Assembly: GCF_001485575.1 (NCBI RefSeq)
Contig: NZ_BCNB01000006.1
Coordinates: 1,860,001 to 1,924,000, forward strand
DNA from: Haloarcula sp. CBA1127
GTDB lineage: Archaea > Halobacteriota > Halobacteria > Halobacteriales > Haloarculaceae
Reading direction: 5' to 3'
Length of the DNA: 64,000 bases
Shown here: piece after piece, positions 24,592 through 37,782 of the stretch
Layout of the letters: every line of letters starts with the position of its first letter
Numbering within the stretch: position 1 is the first letter of the stretch
The notes under the pieces: generated by a model
The model's input: the letters and a program-made list of their open reading frames with translations, nothing else
Database searches by the model: none
What the model was told of the DNA's origin: nothing
Position numbers and translations under genes: made by a program

Positions 24592-25649
24592 TCCAGTCGG
24601 TACTGTTTAGCCGGGTTCTTGTCCTGAAGCAGTTCCATCAGTTCGCTCTCTCCACCCTGTCGAACGCGCTGCCGGTGGGCGTCGATAGTGTCGAGCGCTT
24701 CGTCGACGCTATCGCCGAACAGGTTCCGGAGGTACTGGCGGGGAATCCGGTCGATATCGACCGTCTCGCCGTCCTCCGTGTGCTGGCCGGGGGCGAAGGG
24801 TGGGATGTAGTAGACGTTGGGCTGCGTGCGGAACTCCGGATGGAGCGGCAGGGCCACCTCGTACTCATTGACGAGCTTGTGGATGGGTCCTTCCTCGTCG
24901 TCGAGGAAGCCGACCAGCCGGAGCTGGGGCGGGCACTCCTCGGCACAGGCCGGGGCGAACGTCTCTCCCTCGGGGCCTTCCCCCTCGATGCGGGGGTAGC
25001 AGAAGATGCACTTCTCGGATTTCTTCGAGACGGTGTTGTAGTACACCTTCTTGTACGGACACCCCTCGACGCAGTAGCGGTAGCCCCGGCAACGGTCCTG
25101 ATCGACGAGGACGATGCCGTCCTCCTGGCGCTTGTACAGCGCCGAGCGTGGGCAGGCCTCGACACAGGACGGGTGGGTGCAGTGGTTGCAGATGCGCGGG
25201 AGGTAGAAGTAGTAGCTGTTGGGGTACTCGCCGGCCCCTTGGTCCTCGTCCCAGTTCGGCCCCCACTCCGCGCCGTCGCGGGGCCGCAGCGGTTCGTCGC
25301 TGCCCTCGTACATGATTTCCTCGTGGTTGAACTCCCAGGCGCGGCCGTAGTCTTCCTCGTCGGGAATCTCACCGGGCGAGCGGTCCGAGTGTTCGCCCGA
25401 TTCCCAGCCACCGCCGGAGTCCTCCCAGCCGCGGGGGTAGCCCTCGCCGGGCTTGGTTTCGACATTGTTCCAGTACATGTACTCGCTGCCGCCGTCCTCC
25501 GTCCAGAGGTTCTTGCAGGCGATTGTACACGTCTGGCAGCCGATGCACTTGTTCAGGTCCATCACCATCGCGACCTGGTGGTCGACGCCGTCGGCGACGT
25601 TGACCAGCGTGTCCTCCTCGCCCTGTTCGTCCTGTTGGTCGGTACTCAT
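24573..25649 (-). CDS. narH: Respiratory nitrate reductase iron-sulfur subunit
   Basis: The 358-aa protein has four cysteine groups: CIGCQTCTIACK (C35, C38, C41, C45), CNHCTHPSCVEACP, CRGYRYCVEGCP and CIFCYPRIEGEG with CAEECPP. In the third group Tyr stands where a cysteine of a normal motif would be, as Trp does in Escherichia coli NarH, predicting a [3Fe-4S] centre beside three [4Fe-4S]. It relays electrons to NarG. There is no leader, so export should be piggy-back on NarG. It overlaps narG by 4 bp. The last codons are duplicated downstream (see repeat). Confidence 0.96.
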   Translation of the reverse strand: MSTDQQDEQGEEDTLVNVADGVDHQVAMVMDLNKCIGCQTCTIACKNLWTEDGGSEYMYWNNVETKPGEGYPRGWEDSGGGWESGEHSDRSPGEIPDEEDYGRAWEFNHEEIMYEGSDEPLRPRDGAEWGPNWDEDQGAGEYPNSYYFYLPRICNHCTHPSCVEACPRSALYKRQEDGIVLVDQDRCRGYRYCVEGCPYKKVYYNTVSKKSEKCIFCYPRIEGEGPEGETFAPACAEECPPQLRLVGFLDDEEGPIHKLVNEYEVALPLHPEFRTQPNVYYIPPFAPGQHTEDGETVDIDRIPRQYLRNLFGDSVDEALDTIDAHRQRVRQGGESELMELLQDKNPAKQYRLEVFDDE

Positions 25650-28504
25650 TCGGTGTCACCTCCGCTCGGTCGGACATCGACACGCACGTCGCTGTTGACC
25701 CCGGTCGGCCCCCAGTAGTTCGGGAAGAAGTGCAGGTGTTCCCCGGTGTCTTCCGGGTACTGGACCAGCTGGGTCGGCTTCATGTACATCGGGACGAGCG
25801 TATTGAAGTTGTCCCGGTCGGGGTACTGGAACTTCTCCCATGAGAAGAAGTGCCGAACGGTCCCCGGTTCGCTGGAGGGGTAGATTTTCGCCTGCACCTC
25901 GACGCTCCCGAGGTCGTTGTACACCTCCACGGTGTCGCCGTCCTCGATGCCCCGCTCCTTGGCGTCCTCGGGGTTCAGATACACCACGGGCTCGCCGCGC
26001 TGGAGTCTGAGCATCTTGGTGTCGTCGCGCCACGTCGAGTGGATGGACCAGCGACCGTGGGGCGTGTTGTACGACAGCGGGTAGTCGCCGCCGGTGTTCT
26101 CCGGCCCTTCCTTGTGGGTCGGAAGCTCCTCGCCGAGTTCGAGGTACCAGTCGTGGTCGATGTAGTACTGCTGGCGGCCGGTGAAGGTCGGCCAAGGGTT
26201 CTTGTCGTGGACGTAGTCTTGCCACGGAACGTACGCCTCGCCGTCTTTGATGTCCGAACTCCAGTGGTCGCCAGCTTCGAGGAACCGCTGTGGCTGCTCG
26301 TCGATGTCGTCGAAGGTTATCTGCTCGTCACTGCCCTCGGGGTTGGTCTCTTCGGAGTGTTCTAAGATGAACTCCGCCGCAGCTTTGTCCTCGACGAGCC
26401 CTTCTTCCTCGCCAGTCTCCCAGTCTCGGACGTAGTCGTCGTAGATGGTCGTCAGGTCGATAGTCCGGTCGAACTTGCGGTCCTCGATGGGTTCGACGCC
26501 GCGCTCCTGAGCCTGTTCCTGTATCTTCTCGGCGATCAATCGGAATATCTCCCAGTCGGTCTTGGCCTCACCGAGCGGCTCGACGGCCGGCGTGAACGGG
26601 TGCACGTACGTGTGCATGTCCGTCTCTGAGAGGTCGTACTTCTCGTAGTGGCTGGCCGCCGGCAGGACGATGTCGGAGTACATCGCCGTCGAGTCCATTC
26701 GGAAGTTGATGTCGACGACGAGATCGAGTTTAGGCCAGAGCTGTTCCTCGAGGGCGACGTTTCCCTTGGCCTGGTTGAAGTAGTTCCCGCGCCAAATGAA
26801 CATCGTCGATGGGTCCGGTCGGCTCCCGTCGTTCCGTTCCTCGGGGTAGACCGGCATCCACCCCTTGTCGATGGACTCGCGTATCTTCTCGGCGGTGTCC
26901 GGGTCCGTGTTGTCGAGGATGCCCGCGTGGAAGTAGGTCCACAGCGTCGTCGGGACGCCGCGGACGTTTCCGGTCGGGAACGAGAGGACCTTCCAGCCGT
27001 GGAACGACCAGATCTTCTCCTGTCCCACGTAGTGGTCCAGCCCGGTGCCGGGGTCGCCGAGATTGCCCGTCAGCGTCACGAGCAACTGGATGGCGCGGTT
27101 GCCCAGGTCGTTGTGATACCAGTCGTTGACGCCCTTGCCATGGATGATTTTGGCGGCGTCGGCTTCGGCGAACTCGCGGGCGATCCGCTGGTAGGTGTTC
27201 TCGCCGACGCCGGTCTCCTCGTGAACGACATCCGGCGTGTACTGGCTGAGTTCGTCGGTGAGGTTCTCCCAGACGGACCGGACTGCGACGCTGCCCTCGT
27301 CGGTGTCGACGCTTCGCTCGACCGATAACTGCGGGTCGAAGTCGAGTTCGATGCTCTTCGAGTGGTCGTGCTGGCCGTCCCGCTCACCCAGCGAGCCGGG
27401 CGCACGGCGGAGGTTCCCGTCGTCGTCGACCATGACGAACACCTTCTCGGGGTCGTCGGCGTCCTCGGCAAGGCCGACCTCGCTTGCTCGGAGGAACTTG
27501 CCGGTGTCCTCCCGGACAAGCAGCGGCATGTCGGTCTGCTCTTTGAGATGGTCCTCGTCGTGCAGTCCCTCGTCGACGATTGTCTGGGCCATACCCAGCG
27601 CGAGTGCGGTGTCGCTGCCGCCGTGGGGTGAGAGCCACTCGTCGGTGTGGATGGCCGTCTGGGAGTAGTCTGTGAAGATACCGACGCGCTTTGCACCCTC
27701 GTAGCCGGCGTCGAGGAAGTACTTCGCGTCGGGGATGCGCGTGACGTTGATGTTCGACCCCCAGGCGATGATGTAATCGGCGTTGTGCCAGTCGGCGGAC
27801 TCGGCGTTGTCCGTCTGGGTGCCCCACGTAATCGGCTGGCCCGGCGGCAGGTCCGAGTACCAGTCGTAGAAACTGTGTGAGACGCCGCCGAGCAGATTGA
27901 CGAGCCGGGAGCCGGAGGCGAACGACACCGGACTCATCGCCGGAATCGGCGTGAATCCCGAGATCGCGTCGTACCGGCCCGCCTGCACTTCGTCGATGAC
28001 GTGGTCGGCAATCTCGGTCAGCGCCTCGTCCCAGCTAATCCGCTCCCACTGGCCCTCGCCGCGTTCGCCCGTGCGACGGAGCGGGTGGAGCACGCGCTGG
28101 TCTGCGTTGACGTAGTCCGTGTAACAGGCCCCTTTCTGGCAGCCCCGCGGGTTCGGGTCCGGGAGGCTCTCGTCGAACGTCGGGTAGTCGCCGGCCTGTT
28201 CCTCCCGCCAGACCTGTCCGTCCTTGACGTAGACGTTCCACGAACAGGAGCCGGTGCAGTTGACGCTGTGGGTCGACCGGGCGACGGAGTCCCAGTCCCA
28301 CTCGTCGCGGTACAGGTCCTCCCAGTCCCGATACGGATACGACCCGATGGGGTCGTCGACCGCTTCGAGGCCGTCCATGCCGTCGTCGGCGAAGGACAGC
28401 CCCGTCGCACCCAGTAGCGACGCGGCACCGAGACCGCGCACGAAGTCGCGGCGACTGATTCCCGCACTGTCCGTTTTGTCGTCGGTCAGGTCGTTTCTAC
28501 TCAT
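25646..28504 (-). CDS. narG: Respiratory nitrate reductase catalytic subunit, Tat-exported
   Basis: The 952-aa protein opens with a Tat signal (ISRRDFVRGLGAASLLGATG, RR at 18-19), placing the mature enzyme outside the cell, unlike bacterial NarG. The FS0 cluster motif HSVNCTGSCSW has the histidine ligand typical of NarG. The segment SFYDWYSDLPPGQP near residue 213 contains the aspartate that ligates molybdenum in type-II enzymes. It reduces nitrate to nitrite using Mo-bisPGD. It overlaps both narH (4 bp) and the small membrane gene upstream (8 bp). Confidence 0.97.
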   Translation of the reverse strand: MSRNDLTDDKTDSAGISRRDFVRGLGAASLLGATGLSFADDGMDGLEAVDDPIGSYPYRDWEDLYRDEWDWDSVARSTHSVNCTGSCSWNVYVKDGQVWREEQAGDYPTFDESLPDPNPRGCQKGACYTDYVNADQRVLHPLRRTGERGEGQWERISWDEALTEIADHVIDEVQAGRYDAISGFTPIPAMSPVSFASGSRLVNLLGGVSHSFYDWYSDLPPGQPITWGTQTDNAESADWHNADYIIAWGSNINVTRIPDAKYFLDAGYEGAKRVGIFTDYSQTAIHTDEWLSPHGGSDTALALGMAQTIVDEGLHDEDHLKEQTDMPLLVREDTGKFLRASEVGLAEDADDPEKVFVMVDDDGNLRRAPGSLGERDGQHDHSKSIELDFDPQLSVERSVDTDEGSVAVRSVWENLTDELSQYTPDVVHEETGVGENTYQRIAREFAEADAAKIIHGKGVNDWYHNDLGNRAIQLLVTLTGNLGDPGTGLDHYVGQEKIWSFHGWKVLSFPTGNVRGVPTTLWTYFHAGILDNTDPDTAEKIRESIDKGWMPVYPEERNDGSRPDPSTMFIWRGNYFNQAKGNVALEEQLWPKLDLVVDINFRMDSTAMYSDIVLPAASHYEKYDLSETDMHTYVHPFTPAVEPLGEAKTDWEIFRLIAEKIQEQAQERGVEPIEDRKFDRTIDLTTIYDDYVRDWETGEEEGLVEDKAAAEFILEHSEETNPEGSDEQITFDDIDEQPQRFLEAGDHWSSDIKDGEAYVPWQDYVHDKNPWPTFTGRQQYYIDHDWYLELGEELPTHKEGPENTGGDYPLSYNTPHGRWSIHSTWRDDTKMLRLQRGEPVVYLNPEDAKERGIEDGDTVEVYNDLGSVEVQAKIYPSSEPGTVRHFFSWEKFQYPDRDNFNTLVPMYMKPTQLVQYPEDTGEHLHFFPNYWGPTGVNSDVRVDVRPSGGDTE

Positions 28505-33270: not shown

Positions 33271-33408
33271 TCCCCGAGTTCTGTCCGACGGATCACTCGA
33301 TAGCGGGCGTGCACAGTCTGTTTGTCACCCTTCCAGCAGCGCTCGACCCGGCGGATCGAAAACACCAGAATCAATGCAGTTCCGCTCCTAGCCGAACCAA
33401 TTATACTA

Positions 33409-33933
33409 ATGGCGACCGATTCAGATCTTCACTGTCTCTTTACCGCATCCGTTGAGGAGCAGCACGACTCGTACGTGATCGAAATTCCGAAACAAGAGGT
33501 CGAACTGGGGACGCTGGCTCCTGAGACGCTGTACCGGATCGCACTGTTCCGGTCGGCGGCTGCGGCACCCACGTCCCAGCCACAGTCAAGTTCCCAATCC
33601 AGGCCTGAGCCACAGTCCAATTCCCACTCGGAGCCCGAGCCTCGGTCCAATTCACAATCCAAGTCTGAGACCCAGTCCGATTCCCGGTCCGACGGGCGGA
33701 GCAGGGAACCGGAGTTTGGACCGTCGTCCCCGCCAGTTGCCGAGGGTGAAACGCGCGTGGTCGAGATCGAAAACATCGGCGACAAAGGCGACGGCGTCGC
33801 GCGTATCGACGGCGGGTACGTCGTCATCGTCTCCGACGCAGATGTCGGCGAGCGTCTCCGCGTCGAGATGGACCAGGTCCGCGAGAACGTCGCCTTCGCG
33901 GAGATCGTCGAACGGCTCCCCTACTACGAGTAA
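33409..33933 (+). CDS. TRAM-domain protein with repeat linker
   Basis: The ATG at 33409 follows an AT-rich ttatactaat. Of 174 residues, the last 55 (VVEIENIGDKGDGVARIDGG, YVVIVSDADVGERLRVEMDQ) form a TRAM domain, a small RNA-binding beta barrel with the typical GDGVAR pattern. The first 50 residues are a compact unknown segment (FTASVEEQHDSYVIEIPKQE). Between them lies a linker of four 10-residue Ser/Gln/Pro/Glu repeats (see repeat at 33580-33699). Haloarchaea have many small TRAM proteins thought to act as RNA chaperones; this two-part version with repeat linker is unusual. Confidence 0.85.
   Translation: MATDSDLHCLFTASVEEQHDSYVIEIPKQEVELGTLAPETLYRIALFRSAAAAPTSQPQSSSQSRPEPQSNSHSEPEPRSNSQSKSETQSDSRSDGRSREPEFGPSSPPVAEGETRVVEIENIGDKGDGVARIDGGYVVIVSDADVGERLRVEMDQVRENVAFAEIVERLPYYE
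33580..33699 (+). repeat. Four 30-bp tandem repeats encoding a 10-residue linker unit
   Basis: The units start at 33580, 33610, 33640 and 33670. They encode PQSSSQSRPE, PQSNSHSEPE, PRSNSQSKSE and TQSDSRSDGR. Units 1 to 3 are well conserved and unit 4 is degenerate. The 30-bp period, in frame, points to expansion by slippage or unequal exchange within the TRAM-protein gene. Confidence 0.85.
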
Positions 33934-34039
33934 GCCACCGCTGCTGTCGACTGGCCCTGCTTTCGGACGCTACGGGCAGTGGCTCACCGGCCGGCCACGC
34001 AGCCGAGGGTATATTTCGCCGCCGCCTATCATCTCCGGT

Positions 34040-34675
34040 ATGGGGCACGACCACGACGAAACGACTGGCCACGACGAGACGGGTCACAGCCACAGCGAGC
34101 ATGAACACGGAGAGCATAGCCACGACCACGGAGAGCACGACCACGATAGTGACCACGACCATAGCCACGAGGAACACACCCATGACGACCATCACGCCCA
34201 CGACGCTGAAGGGGTTGACATAGGGGTTCTCACAGTTTCTACCTCCAGAACACTCGATGATGACCCGGCGGGCGACATCATCGCCGCGGCCTGCGAAGAC
34301 GCGGGCCACGAAATCGCCGAGCGCCGCCTCGTCGCGGACGAGGTGGACGCTATCGAGGACGCTGTCGCTGCCCTGCTAGATGACGGCGTCGACGTGGTTC
34401 TGACGACAGGCGGGACCGGCCTCACGCCCGACGACGTGACCGTCGATGCTATCGAACCGCTGTTCGACCGCCCGGTTCCCGGCTTCGGCGAACTGTTCCG
34501 CTGGCTCTCTTACGAGGAAGTCGGGCCGATGGCGATGGCCTCGCGCGCCACCGCCGGCGTCGTCGACGACCGCCTAGTGTTCTGTCTTCCCGGCAGCGAG
34601 AACGCCGCCCGGACGGGCGCCGAGAAACTCGTCGCGCCAACCGTGGGCCACCTGCTAGGGCTCGTCCGACGGTAA
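34040..34675 (+). CDS. moaB: MoaB/MogA-type molybdopterin protein with His-rich N-terminus
   Basis: The ATG at 34040 lies 25-30 bp after the TATA-like gtatatttcg. Residues about 60-211 form the MoaB/MogA domain (IGVLTVSTSRTLDDDPAGD, VVLTTGGTGLTPDDVTVDA, ATAGVVDDRLVFCLPGSENA). MogA-like proteins adenylylate molybdopterin before metal insertion. The first about 52 residues are an added tail containing about 20 histidines with Asp and Glu (for example HDHDETTGHDETGHSHSEHE), a clear metal-binding or metal-storage sequence not found in typical MoaB. The three downstream genes continue molybdenum cofactor synthesis and uptake. Confidence 0.93.
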   Translation: MGHDHDETTGHDETGHSHSEHEHGEHSHDHGEHDHDSDHDHSHEEHTHDDHHAHDAEGVDIGVLTVSTSRTLDDDPAGDIIAAACEDAGHEIAERRLVADEVDAIEDAVAALLDDGVDVVLTTGGTGLTPDDVTVDAIEPLFDRPVPGFGELFRWLSYEEVGPMAMASRATAGVVDDRLVFCLPGSENAARTGAEKLVAPTVGHLLGLVRR

Positions 34676-34719: not shown

Positions 34720-35193
34720 ATGTCCGAGGAATTCACGCACGTCGACGAGGAGGGCGACGCACAGATGGTCGATGTGGGCGACAAAGCCGAGAGCCAGCGC
34801 CGCGCAGTCGCGCGCGGACAGATTCGGCTCACCGAGTCCACGCTGGCGGCCATCGACGCCGACGAGGTGGAGAAAGGCGATGTGCTGGCGACAGCCCGTA
34901 TCGGTGCGATTCAGGCGGTAAAACACACCTGGGAGACGGTGCCGATGTGCCATCAGATTCCCATCACGAACGTCGACATCGAGTTCACCGTTGGCGACGC
35001 GGCCGTCGAAATCGTCGTCGCCGTCGAGACGGTCGGCAAGACCGGCTGCGAGATGGAGGCGCTAGAGGGCGTGACGACCGGCCTCAACGTCGTCTGGGAT
35101 ATGGTGAAAGCAAACGAGAAAGACGATGACGGCGAGTATCCCACGACGGCTATCGAGGATGTCCGCGTGGTCGAGAAAACTGTCGACCGCTAA
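34720..35193 (+). CDS. moaC: Cyclic pyranopterin monophosphate synthase
   Basis: MoaC converts 3',8-cyclo-7,8-dihydro-GTP into cyclic pyranopterin monophosphate, the second step of molybdopterin synthesis. The 157-aa protein has the family signatures FTHVDEEGDAQMVDVGDKAE, KHTWETVPMCHQIPITNV and GCEMEALEGVTTGLNVVWDM, the last with the catalytic Lys/Asp-rich end region. Length is standard. It lies 44 bp after moaB on the same strand. Confidence 0.96.
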   Translation: MSEEFTHVDEEGDAQMVDVGDKAESQRRAVARGQIRLTESTLAAIDADEVEKGDVLATARIGAIQAVKHTWETVPMCHQIPITNVDIEFTVGDAAVEIVVAVETVGKTGCEMEALEGVTTGLNVVWDMVKANEKDDDGEYPTTAIEDVRVVEKTVDR

Positions 35194-35266: not shown

Positions 35267-36094
35267 ATGCAAGTCCTCGGTATCGTCGGCCACTCCGACT
35301 CGGGGAAGACCACGCTGGTCGAGCGGTTGACACAGCGGCTCTCCGGGACCGGCCGTGTCGCGACGGTGAAACACTGCACGCACGCGCCGGATGTCGACAC
35401 GGATGGGAAGGATACGGCTCGCCATCGCGATGCTGGGGCGGCTGAGACCGTCGCGCTCACCGACGATGGCGAGTGGTACGCAACGGGGCAGTCGCGGACG
35501 CTTGATGAGGCGCTGGATGCCCTTGCGCCTGACTACGACTATGCACTCGTAGAGGGATATTCGGACGCGAGCATCCCGAAAGTCGTTCTCGGCGACCGTG
35601 CGGTCGCTGATCCCGTCGTGCATCGCGCGCCCCATGGCGCGGACGCTGACCTTGACGACATCGTCACCGCGATGGAGGAGCGAGACCCCTACATCACGCT
35701 GGAAACACTCGTTGCGGACGTAAAGCGGGACCCGGACGAGGTGTACTCGGGCGCAATAGCGACGTTTACTGGGCGGGTCCGCGCACAAGAGGGGCCGGAG
35801 GACCCGCCGACGGAGTTGCTGGAGTTCGAGCGCTACGACGAGGTCGCCGCCGAGAAGATGGCCACGCTTCGCCGGGACCTCGAAGCGCGGGACGGTATCT
35901 ACGCGGTTCGACTACACCACAAAACCGGCGTGGTTGATGCTGGCGAGGACATCGTTTTCGTCGTCATCCTGGCTGGCCACCGAACTGAGGCGTTCCGCGC
36001 CGTCGAAGACGGTATCAACCGGCTGAAAGAGGAAGTGCCGCTGTTCAAGAAGGAGGTCACCGTCGACGAGGAGTTCTGGGCACACGAGCGATAG
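35267..36094 (+). CDS. moaE: MobB-MoaE fusion protein
   Basis: Residues about 1-125 are MobB, a GTP-binding protein that assists guanylylation of molybdopterin (P-loop GHSDSGKTTL, then TVKHCTHAPDVDTDGKDTAR). Residues about 135-275 are MoaE, the large subunit of molybdopterin synthase (YSGAIATFTGRVR, LEFERYDEVAAEKMATLRRD, RLHHKTGVVDAGED, HRTEAFRAVEDGINRLKEEV, PLFKKEV), which inserts the dithiolene sulfurs with MoaD. The joining segment (AMEERDPYITLETLV) is short. Fusing the dithiolene step with the last nucleotide step is notable. No MoaD gene is adjacent. Confidence 0.95.
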   Translation: MQVLGIVGHSDSGKTTLVERLTQRLSGTGRVATVKHCTHAPDVDTDGKDTARHRDAGAAETVALTDDGEWYATGQSRTLDEALDALAPDYDYALVEGYSDASIPKVVLGDRAVADPVVHRAPHGADADLDDIVTAMEERDPYITLETLVADVKRDPDEVYSGAIATFTGRVRAQEGPEDPPTELLEFERYDEVAAEKMATLRRDLEARDGIYAVRLHHKTGVVDAGEDIVFVVILAGHRTEAFRAVEDGINRLKEEVPLFKKEVTVDEEFWAHER

Positions 36095-36125: not shown

Positions 36126-36926
36126 CTACCGCCACGGCGTCGCCCGCAGTGCATGGACCACCAGCAGCGTCCCGAGTGCGACGCCCAGCAGCACTACTGC
36201 CACGGGTAGCGCCGCATCCAGCCCGTCAGAGATAAAGGAGGCCCAGATCTGCACGGGGAGCGTCCGCGGGTAGTACGCCAGCATCATCGTCGCGCCGAAC
36301 TCGCCCATCGCGCGTGCGAACGTCAACACAAGTCCGGCGAGCAACCCGGGCTTTGCGAGCGGAATCGTCACCGAGCGCATCGTCCCGACCCAGTCGCGTC
36401 CGAGTGACCGTGAGGCTTCTTCGAGTCGGTCGTCAATGCCATCGAAGGCAGCTTTGGCAGTGACGACGAAGAACGGCGACGCGACGAACGTCTGGGCGGC
36501 GATGACGCCGAGCAGCGACCGCGTCAGTGTCAGGTCGGTAAGCCCCCCGAGTCCGCTCGGCCCGACAACGGTCAACAGCAACATCCCGCTGACGACCGGT
36601 GGGAGGACGAGGGGGAGGACGACGGCACCCATCGCTGCGGTCGCCAGCACGCTGGTGTTTCGCGAGAGCCAGTAAGCAAGCGGGAGGCCAAATACGACAG
36701 CGATGGTCGTACTGCCGAGTGCGGCAACGAGAGATGTGACTGCGGCGTTGATGACGTACGTCTCTGTCAGACTCGTCAGCAGCGCCGCTGGGGAGTATGT
36801 GATAACGAGCACCAGCACCGGAACGACGAAATACAGGAGCAGCACCGCTCCCAGCACGGGAACGAGCTCGCGCACGCCGACCGTATGGCCGGCTCTGGTC
36901 TCACCGCGTGACAGTGCTCGGGACAT
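36126..36926 (-). CDS. ABC transporter permease, tungstate/molybdate type
   Basis: The 266-aa protein has six or so helices and the permease EAA-like loop EEASRSLGRDWVGTMRSVTI with the GxxxxxxxxxxP spacing. It resembles ModB/WtpB/TupB oxyanion permeases (LVLTFARAMGEFGATMMLAY is the conserved ARALGEFG motif of molybdate/tungstate/sulfate permeases). It overlaps the binding-protein gene by 26 bp. No ATP-binding cassette gene follows within the window, since the next gene on this side is on the opposite strand; one must be encoded elsewhere. Confidence 0.9.
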   Translation of the reverse strand: MSRALSRGETRAGHTVGVRELVPVLGAVLLLYFVVPVLVLVITYSPAALLTSLTETYVINAAVTSLVAALGSTTIAVVFGLPLAYWLSRNTSVLATAAMGAVVLPLVLPPVVSGMLLLTVVGPSGLGGLTDLTLTRSLLGVIAAQTFVASPFFVVTAKAAFDGIDDRLEEASRSLGRDWVGTMRSVTIPLAKPGLLAGLVLTFARAMGEFGATMMLAYYPRTLPVQIWASFISDGLDAALPVAVVLLGVALGTLLVVHALRATPWR

Positions 36927-37782
36927 CTCCCACTAGTCGAGGATAGGCCTGGCGGAGGGTAAATCCGTGTGATGCGAGCCAGTCACCGGATATGACTGTC
37001 TCGAAGGCTGTACGCGTCGCTTCTTGATTATCACGGCGGACAGCCCCGTACTCGATAGGGCTGCCAGTGATTCTCGAGCCGTTCGGCAGCTTGTAGCTGG
37101 TGGTCTGATACTGCTCGGCGTATGCGGGGTCGCCAAGATGTATCTCCGCCGGGAACTCTCGGAACGGGTAATCCCGTTCGACCGCCATACTCCGGTAGAC
37201 GAAGGCGGCGTCGACGGCTCCCGTCTCGAACTGCGCGAGCAGTTGCGTTTCGGGGTACGTCTGGTCTGGCGAGAGGACTGCACCGGCCAAGCTAGGCTCA
37301 TCGTAGTAGGTGGCTGCAAGGGACAGCACGAACAGCGTTCGATACCCAAGCGGGTCGAGCGCCGGGTCAGTGCGGCCGAGCGAGACACTGTCACGTTTGA
37401 GCGGGGCGTACCACGGCTCTGCGTCCGTGATTCGGGTCCCGGCGTCCGTCTCTGGGTTGTACGCAAGCACCATTTCGTTGCTGGCGATCACGGCGTGCCA
37501 GGCGGTGTCCATGACCCGACTGAACAGGGTCGGATCCGCCAGCGCGACGATATCCGGGTCGCGCTTCCCGTCGGTGACCAATCGCGCGGCCTGAACAGAG
37601 CCGCGGGCTTCGACAGCAATCTCAGCGTCTGTTTGTGCTTGCAGCGTCTCACTGGCCGCTTTCTGCAAACTCCCCGCGACCAGTACGTCCACCCGTTCCC
37701 GATTGAACGCCCCACACCCTGCCGTCGCGGCGATACCACTCCCCAGCGCTGTGAGTATTTCGCGGCGGGTCCGGCGGGCCAT
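36901..37782 (-). CDS. Oxyanion-binding lipoprotein of the ABC transporter (WtpA/ModA-like)
   Basis: The 293-aa protein starts with RRTRREILTALGSG, then AATAGCGAF, a Tat-type leader with lipobox cysteine at about residue 23. VDVLVAGSLQKAASETLQAQ and DPDIVALADPTLFSRV belong to ModA/WtpA-type binding proteins that trap molybdate or tungstate. In NEMVLAYNPETDAGTRITDA the usual periplasmic-type fold continues, and VDAAFVYRSMAVERDYPF is the second ligand region. Context among moaB/C/E genes supports Mo or W uptake. Which metal is preferred cannot be told from sequence alone. Confidence 0.88.
   Translation of the reverse strand: MARRTRREILTALGSGIAATAGCGAFNRERVDVLVAGSLQKAASETLQAQTDAEIAVEARGSVQAARLVTDGKRDPDIVALADPTLFSRVMDTAWHAVIASNEMVLAYNPETDAGTRITDAEPWYAPLKRDSVSLGRTDPALDPLGYRTLFVLSLAATYYDEPSLAGAVLSPDQTYPETQLLAQFETGAVDAAFVYRSMAVERDYPFREFPAEIHLGDPAYAEQYQTTSYKLPNGSRITGSPIEYGAVRRDNQEATRTAFETVISGDWLASHGFTLRQAYPRLVGDVPSTVTR

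Follow-up and report, generated by a model that had tools for sequence, protein, structure and literature searches.

Why a molybdopterin (MPT) adenylyltransferase should begin with some fifty residues made up largely of histidine and acid is the question raised by moaB of Haloarcula sp. CBA1127. The window analysed here, a stretch of 64,000 nucleotides, carries the moaB open reading frame (ORF) on its + strand (34040-34675), with an ATG at 34040, 211 residues whose last codon ends at 34672, and a stop codon at 34673-34675. The protein can be divided into a variable His/Asp/Glu-rich tail (residues 1-50, 34040..34189, + strand), recognized by composition, low model confidence (pLDDT) and a length that differs among species; a core-proximal motif, DHHAHD (residues 50-55, 34187..34204, + strand), whose His51 aligns with an N-terminal His of archaeal MoaB; and the MoaB core (residues 58-211, 34211..34672, + strand), identified by PF00994 and by Foldseek matches to 1y5e, 3iwt and 4lhb.

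The enrichment in histidine is real. The first-pass annotation placed about 20 His in the first 52 residues; the exact count is 19, alongside 18 Asp/Glu, and the number reaches 20 within residues 1-55. With a His frequency of 2.19%, taken from the 47 window ORFs of at least 250 aa, at least 19 His in 52 residues has a binomial P of 1e-18, and elsewhere in the whole window, in any frame, 52 residues never hold more than 9 His. At 80 named loci, a density of at least 9 His per 40 residues was found in 64 of 80 MoaB rows versus 1 of 383 control ORFs (non-overlapping neighbours of at least 200 aa at the same loci), and that sole His-dense neighbour, which is rich in Arg, looks like a wrong-frame ORF. 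Six His per 30 residues never occurred in 12,600 random draws from the cores of the tailed rows themselves. When the Haloarcula genome was probed with the tail as query, the sole match was the MoaB tail itself; the DNA pattern for H.H.H.H occurs there at 21 places versus 8 for the reversed pattern, and the stretches around seven groups of these places were extracted. The start codon is supported by a BRE/TATA-like promoter element, CGAGGGTATATTT (34004..34016, + strand), that lies ∼30 nt 5′ of the ATG and recurs in 12 of 24 Haloarcula loci, with close variants in 2 more and TTTA at -27 to -29 in several further loci. This spacing implies a leaderless mRNA of the haloarchaeal type, as far as can be read from sequence. 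The possibility that the tail is a chance or misread frame is ruled out by the His statistics, the promoter element, and the conservation and dN/dS values among Haloarcula described below.

Downstream of the tail, the match to PF00994 (MoCF_biosynth) covers residues 62-203 with 121.2 bits against a cut-off of 26.6 (E 3.8e-35), which bears out the earlier description of a normal MoaB domain. The GGTG active-site motif is present (residues 124-127, 34409..34420, + strand), as are Asp100 (34337..34339, + strand), a family-invariant residue that is the counterpart of the catalytic Mg-binding Asp (MogA Asp49, Cnx1G Asp515, PfuMoaB Asp56), and Asp132, which we take to match MogA Asp82; both stand in the places of the MogA and Cnx1G catalytic aspartates. 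Roles have been described for the catalytic aspartates of MogA (Asp49, Asp82), Cnx1G and PfuMoaB (PMC9458074, PMC3896444, both in excerpt) and for the GGTG motif (PMC3896444, in excerpt). The AlphaFold2 model superposes on 1y5e_B, which is B. cereus MoaB (PMC3896444, in excerpt), with a TM-score of 0.93 by target and an rmsd of 1.2, indicating a MoaB fold. The nearest solved structures found by Foldseek are MoaB of B. cereus, S. tokodaii and E. coli, with those of T. thermophilus and P. furiosus also within the top ten rows. The equivalog TIGR02667 (moaB_proteo) was missed, with 166.9 bits against a cut-off of 222.4; none of the 294 genomes of the phylum sample reaches this cut-off, which shows the model to be too narrow to cover archaea, and we did not assign the Haloarcula protein to it. 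Judged by its sequence, the protein is an ordinary MPT adenylyltransferase MoaB with the corresponding predicted activity.

The dense His-rich stretch (19 of 52 residues) coincides with low pLDDT in the AlphaFold2 model, where block means are 44-58 over residues 1-50, the mean for residues 51-60 is 72, and the core is confident. The tail is thereby predicted to be disordered to about residue 50, with order beginning at about residue 51.

Of 391 genomes sampled across the class, 390 contained a MoaB-like match, and the best match was classified in one genome per genus for 86 haloarchaeal genera. The His-tailed form, with a His/Asp-rich tail ending in a short HHxHD, was found in 57 genera, which excludes a peculiarity of a single genome. 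A His-rich tail had been called not typical of MoaB, and this does not hold within haloarchaea, where it is the typical form. A second form, T2, occurs in 27 genera, mostly of one family; it reads like RRxTDxHGHDxIDPLYV, with a median His count of 2 over the last 30 residues, and carries an HGHD or DGHD-like motif only. The remaining two genera were set apart by our own classification rule and are represented by the His-poor cupin fusion L237 and by L238, in which the degenerate type described below was the only one found. In 50 of the 57 tailed genera, the last 30 residues ahead of the core contain 6 or more His, a count that disregards the position of the start codon and therefore undercounts short tails, and 52 have HH at -7/-6. 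Across 63 tailed rows, position -7 is His in 94%, position -6 in 98% and position -4 in 79%, and position -3 is acidic (Asp/Glu) in 98%; a variable array thus ends in a nearly fixed short motif. Within Haloarcula, MoaB ranges from 168 to 212 residues and the tail is very variable in length, while all 24 aligned loci are tailed, the shortest with 4 His, so the close orthologues do not lack it. In L080, a Halobacteriales metagenome-assembled genome from ALOHA, GGPSCGHIGEFN precedes the core in place of the His array. The bacterial MoaB of Limosilactobacillus fermentum (L275) has no N-terminal extension and instead ends in a His cluster, HHHAH.

In a tree of 141 MoaB cores, in which several deep branches are weak and the bootstrap is not settled, T2 forms a single clade (100/99) and the His-less rows nest inside the tailed ones, with the exception of L237. 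The tailed form would therefore most simply be ancestral in the class, with the array lost clade by clade. Its absence in 27 of 86 genera indicates that the array is dispensable and not needed for the reaction.

These losses bear on the explanation that low-complexity sequence expanded beside a functional His, neutrally or under weak selection, or that the array is a solubility bristle there, in either case without any role in metal handling. That one large clade (T2) lives without the array would agree with this, as would the wide variation in tail length even inside Haloarcula and the gaps and near-repeats (HDHDHH, GHDH) that are common in the tails. However, it is His, beyond mere acid, that is kept across the 57 genera, and the tail codons appear constrained. 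Among six close Haloarcula, pooled pairwise dN/dS falls from 0.14 in the tail to 0.07 in the motif and 0.04 in the core, and over twelve loci the values are 0.15, 0.07 and 0.05, respectively; these values point to purifying selection and, the pairs being non-independent and the tail alignment gappy, to nothing stronger. The His codons of the tails are also mixed (244 CAC, 55 CAT), so the tail is no fresh pure repeat.

A degenerate MoaB-like paralogue in the same genome (L002 997-1974, = L291) provides a further comparison. Its long acidic tail starts MVDFQSRDTRRG and has 49 Asp/Glu but only 2 His among 165 residues; the start MVDFQSRDTRR is shared by the paralogue and many true His-tailed MoaB. 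Since this acidic-tailed protein is nearly His-free, salt adaptation alone does not yield the tail His, which weakens the proposal that they are a by-product of an acidic proteome and argues, from sequence comparison, that His is selected for. The same near-absence of His speaks against neutral expansion, which we consider rather unlikely. The catalytic Asp is lost in 18 paralogue rows, and GGTG is broken in part of them. PF00994 has seven matches in the Haloarcula genome; they include MoaB, L002/L291, and the CinA-like L286 and MoeA-type L289 and L290 named by a family scan, while two more, at 679158 and 1460176 on contig 6, lie outside that scan. The MoaB at 34040 is the only one found in the genome with an intact catalytic Asp, and no MogA was identified among the PF00994 matches covered by the family scan.

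The origin of the tail can be approached from MoaB outside the class. PfuMoaB (4lhb), S. tokodaii MoaB (3iwt) and B. cereus MoaB (1y5e) share the fold, the GGTG motif and the catalytic Asp with the Haloarcula protein, but the solved MoaB N-termini are short, with few His at most, and Haloarcula MoaB adds ∼50 His/Asp-rich residues. In outgroup MoaB, taken singly from 25 further families of the phylum, the N-terminus is likewise short, and 25 of 25 rows have a His at -5 to -9, where chance would give ∼10%. Both 3iwt and 4lhb align an N-terminal His with His51 at the same spacing from the core; in PfuMoaB it is His6, counted from the numbering of Ile59. We therefore interpret the tail of haloarchaeal MoaB as sequence that expanded upstream of a His already inherited.

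This inherited residue might itself be the working part. In that case His51, perhaps together with His204 (34649..34651, + strand), which lies in the last helix (187-209) and is invariant in tailed, T2 and outgroup rows, would close over the active site or interface during adenylylation, or bind metal, and the array would be secondary. All 122 archaeal rows of the tailed, T2 and outgroup sets combine the core-proximal His with Asp100 and His204. In the set classed as X, 18 of 19 rows, all of them paralogues, are without a His at -5 to -9 and without Asp100, 5 of these 18 keeping His204, and the one remaining row, cupin fusion L237, has all three residues. E. coli MoaB, which has no counterpart of the N-terminal His, Asp100 or His204, is reported to be inactive in vivo and in vitro (PMC3896444, in excerpt). 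On the other hand, the paralogue losses form one clade and so count as about one event, and among 10 bacterial MoaB the Asp is present in 9 but the N-terminal His in 1 (Anoxybacillus). A strict link between the N-terminal His and the catalytic Asp across all MoaB was rejected on these grounds, as it holds in the archaeal rows and is broken in bacteria. In PfuMoaB crystals, moreover, residues 1-9, 1-10 or 1-11 are disordered (PMC3896444, in excerpt), and His6 falls inside this stretch. A working role for His51 with a secondary array is, on balance, unlikely.

We favour a reading in which an inherited anchor His was joined by an added metal-binding His/Asp array that buffers or intercepts metals near MPT, and we regard it as about an even bet. 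The tail would consist of two parts, DHHAHD touching the folded core and the disordered array upstream, with His51 inherited from the short archaeal MoaB N-terminus and the His/Asp/Glu array of variable length a haloarchaeal addition upstream of it. Most likely, the array would offer loose binding to several divalent ions of transition metals (Zn, Ni, Co or Cu). Relatives of MoaB are trimers or hexamers, and a mobile array on each subunit of such an oligomer would therefore surround the active sites with metal ligands. The MPT dithiolene is a strong metal ligand, and the array may buffer or intercept metal ions in the vicinity of this metal-greedy group.

The expectation of metal binding comes from other haloarchaeal proteins. 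Haloferax volcanii PitA, in which a His-rich linker joins a ChdC and an ABM-like domain, was purified by Co affinity and was present in the haloarchaeal genomes then available (PMC5746218, in excerpt), and nickel binding by PitA has been described as well (PMC8576121, PMC7688916, in excerpt). PitA resembles the Haloarcula protein in carrying a natural, flexible His-rich segment on a haloarchaeal cofactor-biosynthesis enzyme; it differs in that the segment is an inter-domain linker and the pathway is that of heme, and Co-column binding, shown for PitA, is for MoaB a prediction by analogy. Haloferax LarC co-purifies on Ni-NTA (PMC12853182, in excerpt), and the LarC of the present genome (L273, contig 6 near 1594400; TIGR00299, 95.1 bits against a cut-off of 90) has a long His-rich stretch (DSHDHTHNDHSHSHSHDDEHGH...). 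Here too a metal-cofactor enzyme, of nickel pincer cofactor biosynthesis and from the same genome, bears a His-rich stretch, although LarC acts in nickel insertion and its stretch is internal while that of MoaB is N-terminal. Because the His-rich PitA and LarC bind to or co-purify on Co or Ni columns, the MoaB tail is expected to bind divalent transition metals. The same genome encodes L268, presumably a Cdc48d-type AAA ATPase, with the His/Asp-rich end SDHDHDHDH. Cdc48d has been grouped with PitA as naturally His-rich (PMC11169840, in excerpt), but it is no cofactor enzyme and its His cluster is C-terminal. Another protein of this genome, L267 (contig 6 near 1062800), carries HSHDHAHEHGHG, a short His cluster within the chain, and is acidic at its end.

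Of the first-pass proposal of a metal-binding His-rich tail, the His-rich tail on a normal MoaB stands, and metal binding is probable by analogy with PitA and LarC; the buffering role may follow from it. For storage, copper sensing and targeting, which had also been put forward, we found no supporting sequence evidence for any of the three. Both archaeal MoaB and haloarchaeal proteins with natural His-rich stretches have been described before, and their combination appears to be new, as we found no report of a His-rich tail on MoaB in the open-licence literature. Against the favoured reading, the Haloferax papers searched by term name no MoaB among contaminants of nickel columns (PMC12853182, PMC11169840, PMC8576121). 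If the tail does bind metal, MoaB is predicted to be another native His-rich protein of Haloferax and a possible contaminant of nickel-column preparations. If it binds metal beside MPT, it would offer a genetic handle on whether a metal occupies or avoids the dithiolene before molybdenum or tungsten insertion, and which metal this is, and haloarchaea supply the natural variants: long-tailed, short-tailed, array-less T2, cupin-fused, and the His-less degenerate paralogue.

A copper-specific version of metal handling, with the tail as a sensor or chaperone that supplies or removes copper on the MPT dithiolene as seen in Cnx1G, takes its support from the Cnx1G-MPT structure 1uux/1uuy, the title of which links molybdenum and copper metabolism (cited in PMC9458074, in excerpt). 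But the tail contains no copper motif of Cys or Met, no copper gene was noticed in passing next to moaB, binding by His/Asp tails extends to several metals, and no sequence feature selects for copper, making this version quite improbable. A broader proposal is that archaeal MoaB possesses an overlooked N-terminal His element with a part in handling a metal on the MPT dithiolene, either a protecting or a counter metal, that haloarchaea multiplied the element into a metallochaperone tail, and that the cupin-MoaB fusions of basal lineages, some with a His-rich linker, are its furthest extension; we think this unlikely. Cupin-MoaB fusions were seen in L123 (G021), L206 (G217) and L237 (G285), from haloarchaeal families f5 and f11, each with the cupin N-terminal. 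The linker is His-rich in L123 and weaker in L206 and L237, and the Cupin_2 family scan covered L123 and L237 only.

In the window, moaB is followed in the same direction by moaC (34720..35193, + strand; NF008999, 241.9 bits against a cut-off of 171) and a mobB-moaE fusion of molybdopterin synthase (35267..36094, + strand; NF011061, 399.4 bits against 215), and then by WtpA/WtpB-like tungstate/molybdate ABC transporter genes (36126..37782, - strand), named from best NCBIfam matches, none of which reaches its curated cut-off. TIGR03479 marks a DMSO-reductase-type molybdopterin enzyme at 25646-28504. Binding is a common function of disordered tails, and the adjoining moaC and mobB-moaE would suit a tail that docks or targets MoaB to partners such as MoeA or molybdopterin synthase. 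This is very improbable, as sequence and length are unconserved for a docking peptide, the last six residues excepted, and a conserved moaB neighbourhood was not found among the 68 related loci with full flanks, only 14 of which have moaC within 4 kb. Upstream of moaB, a TRAM-domain protein (window 33352-33933) has a long Ser/Gln/Pro/Glu-rich low-complexity middle (SQPQSSSQSRPEPQSNSHSEPEPRS...). Elsewhere in the class, a T2-type MoaB directly follows a gene annotated as a GTP-binding protein on a Halocatena marina plasmid (L284) and on a Halorubrum ezzemoulense megaplasmid (L285), and in the latter it is followed in turn by an Fe-S scaffold protein and a cobalt-factor II C20-methyltransferase. 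This gene order suggests a role for the T2 protein in a cobalamin or metallochaperone setting.
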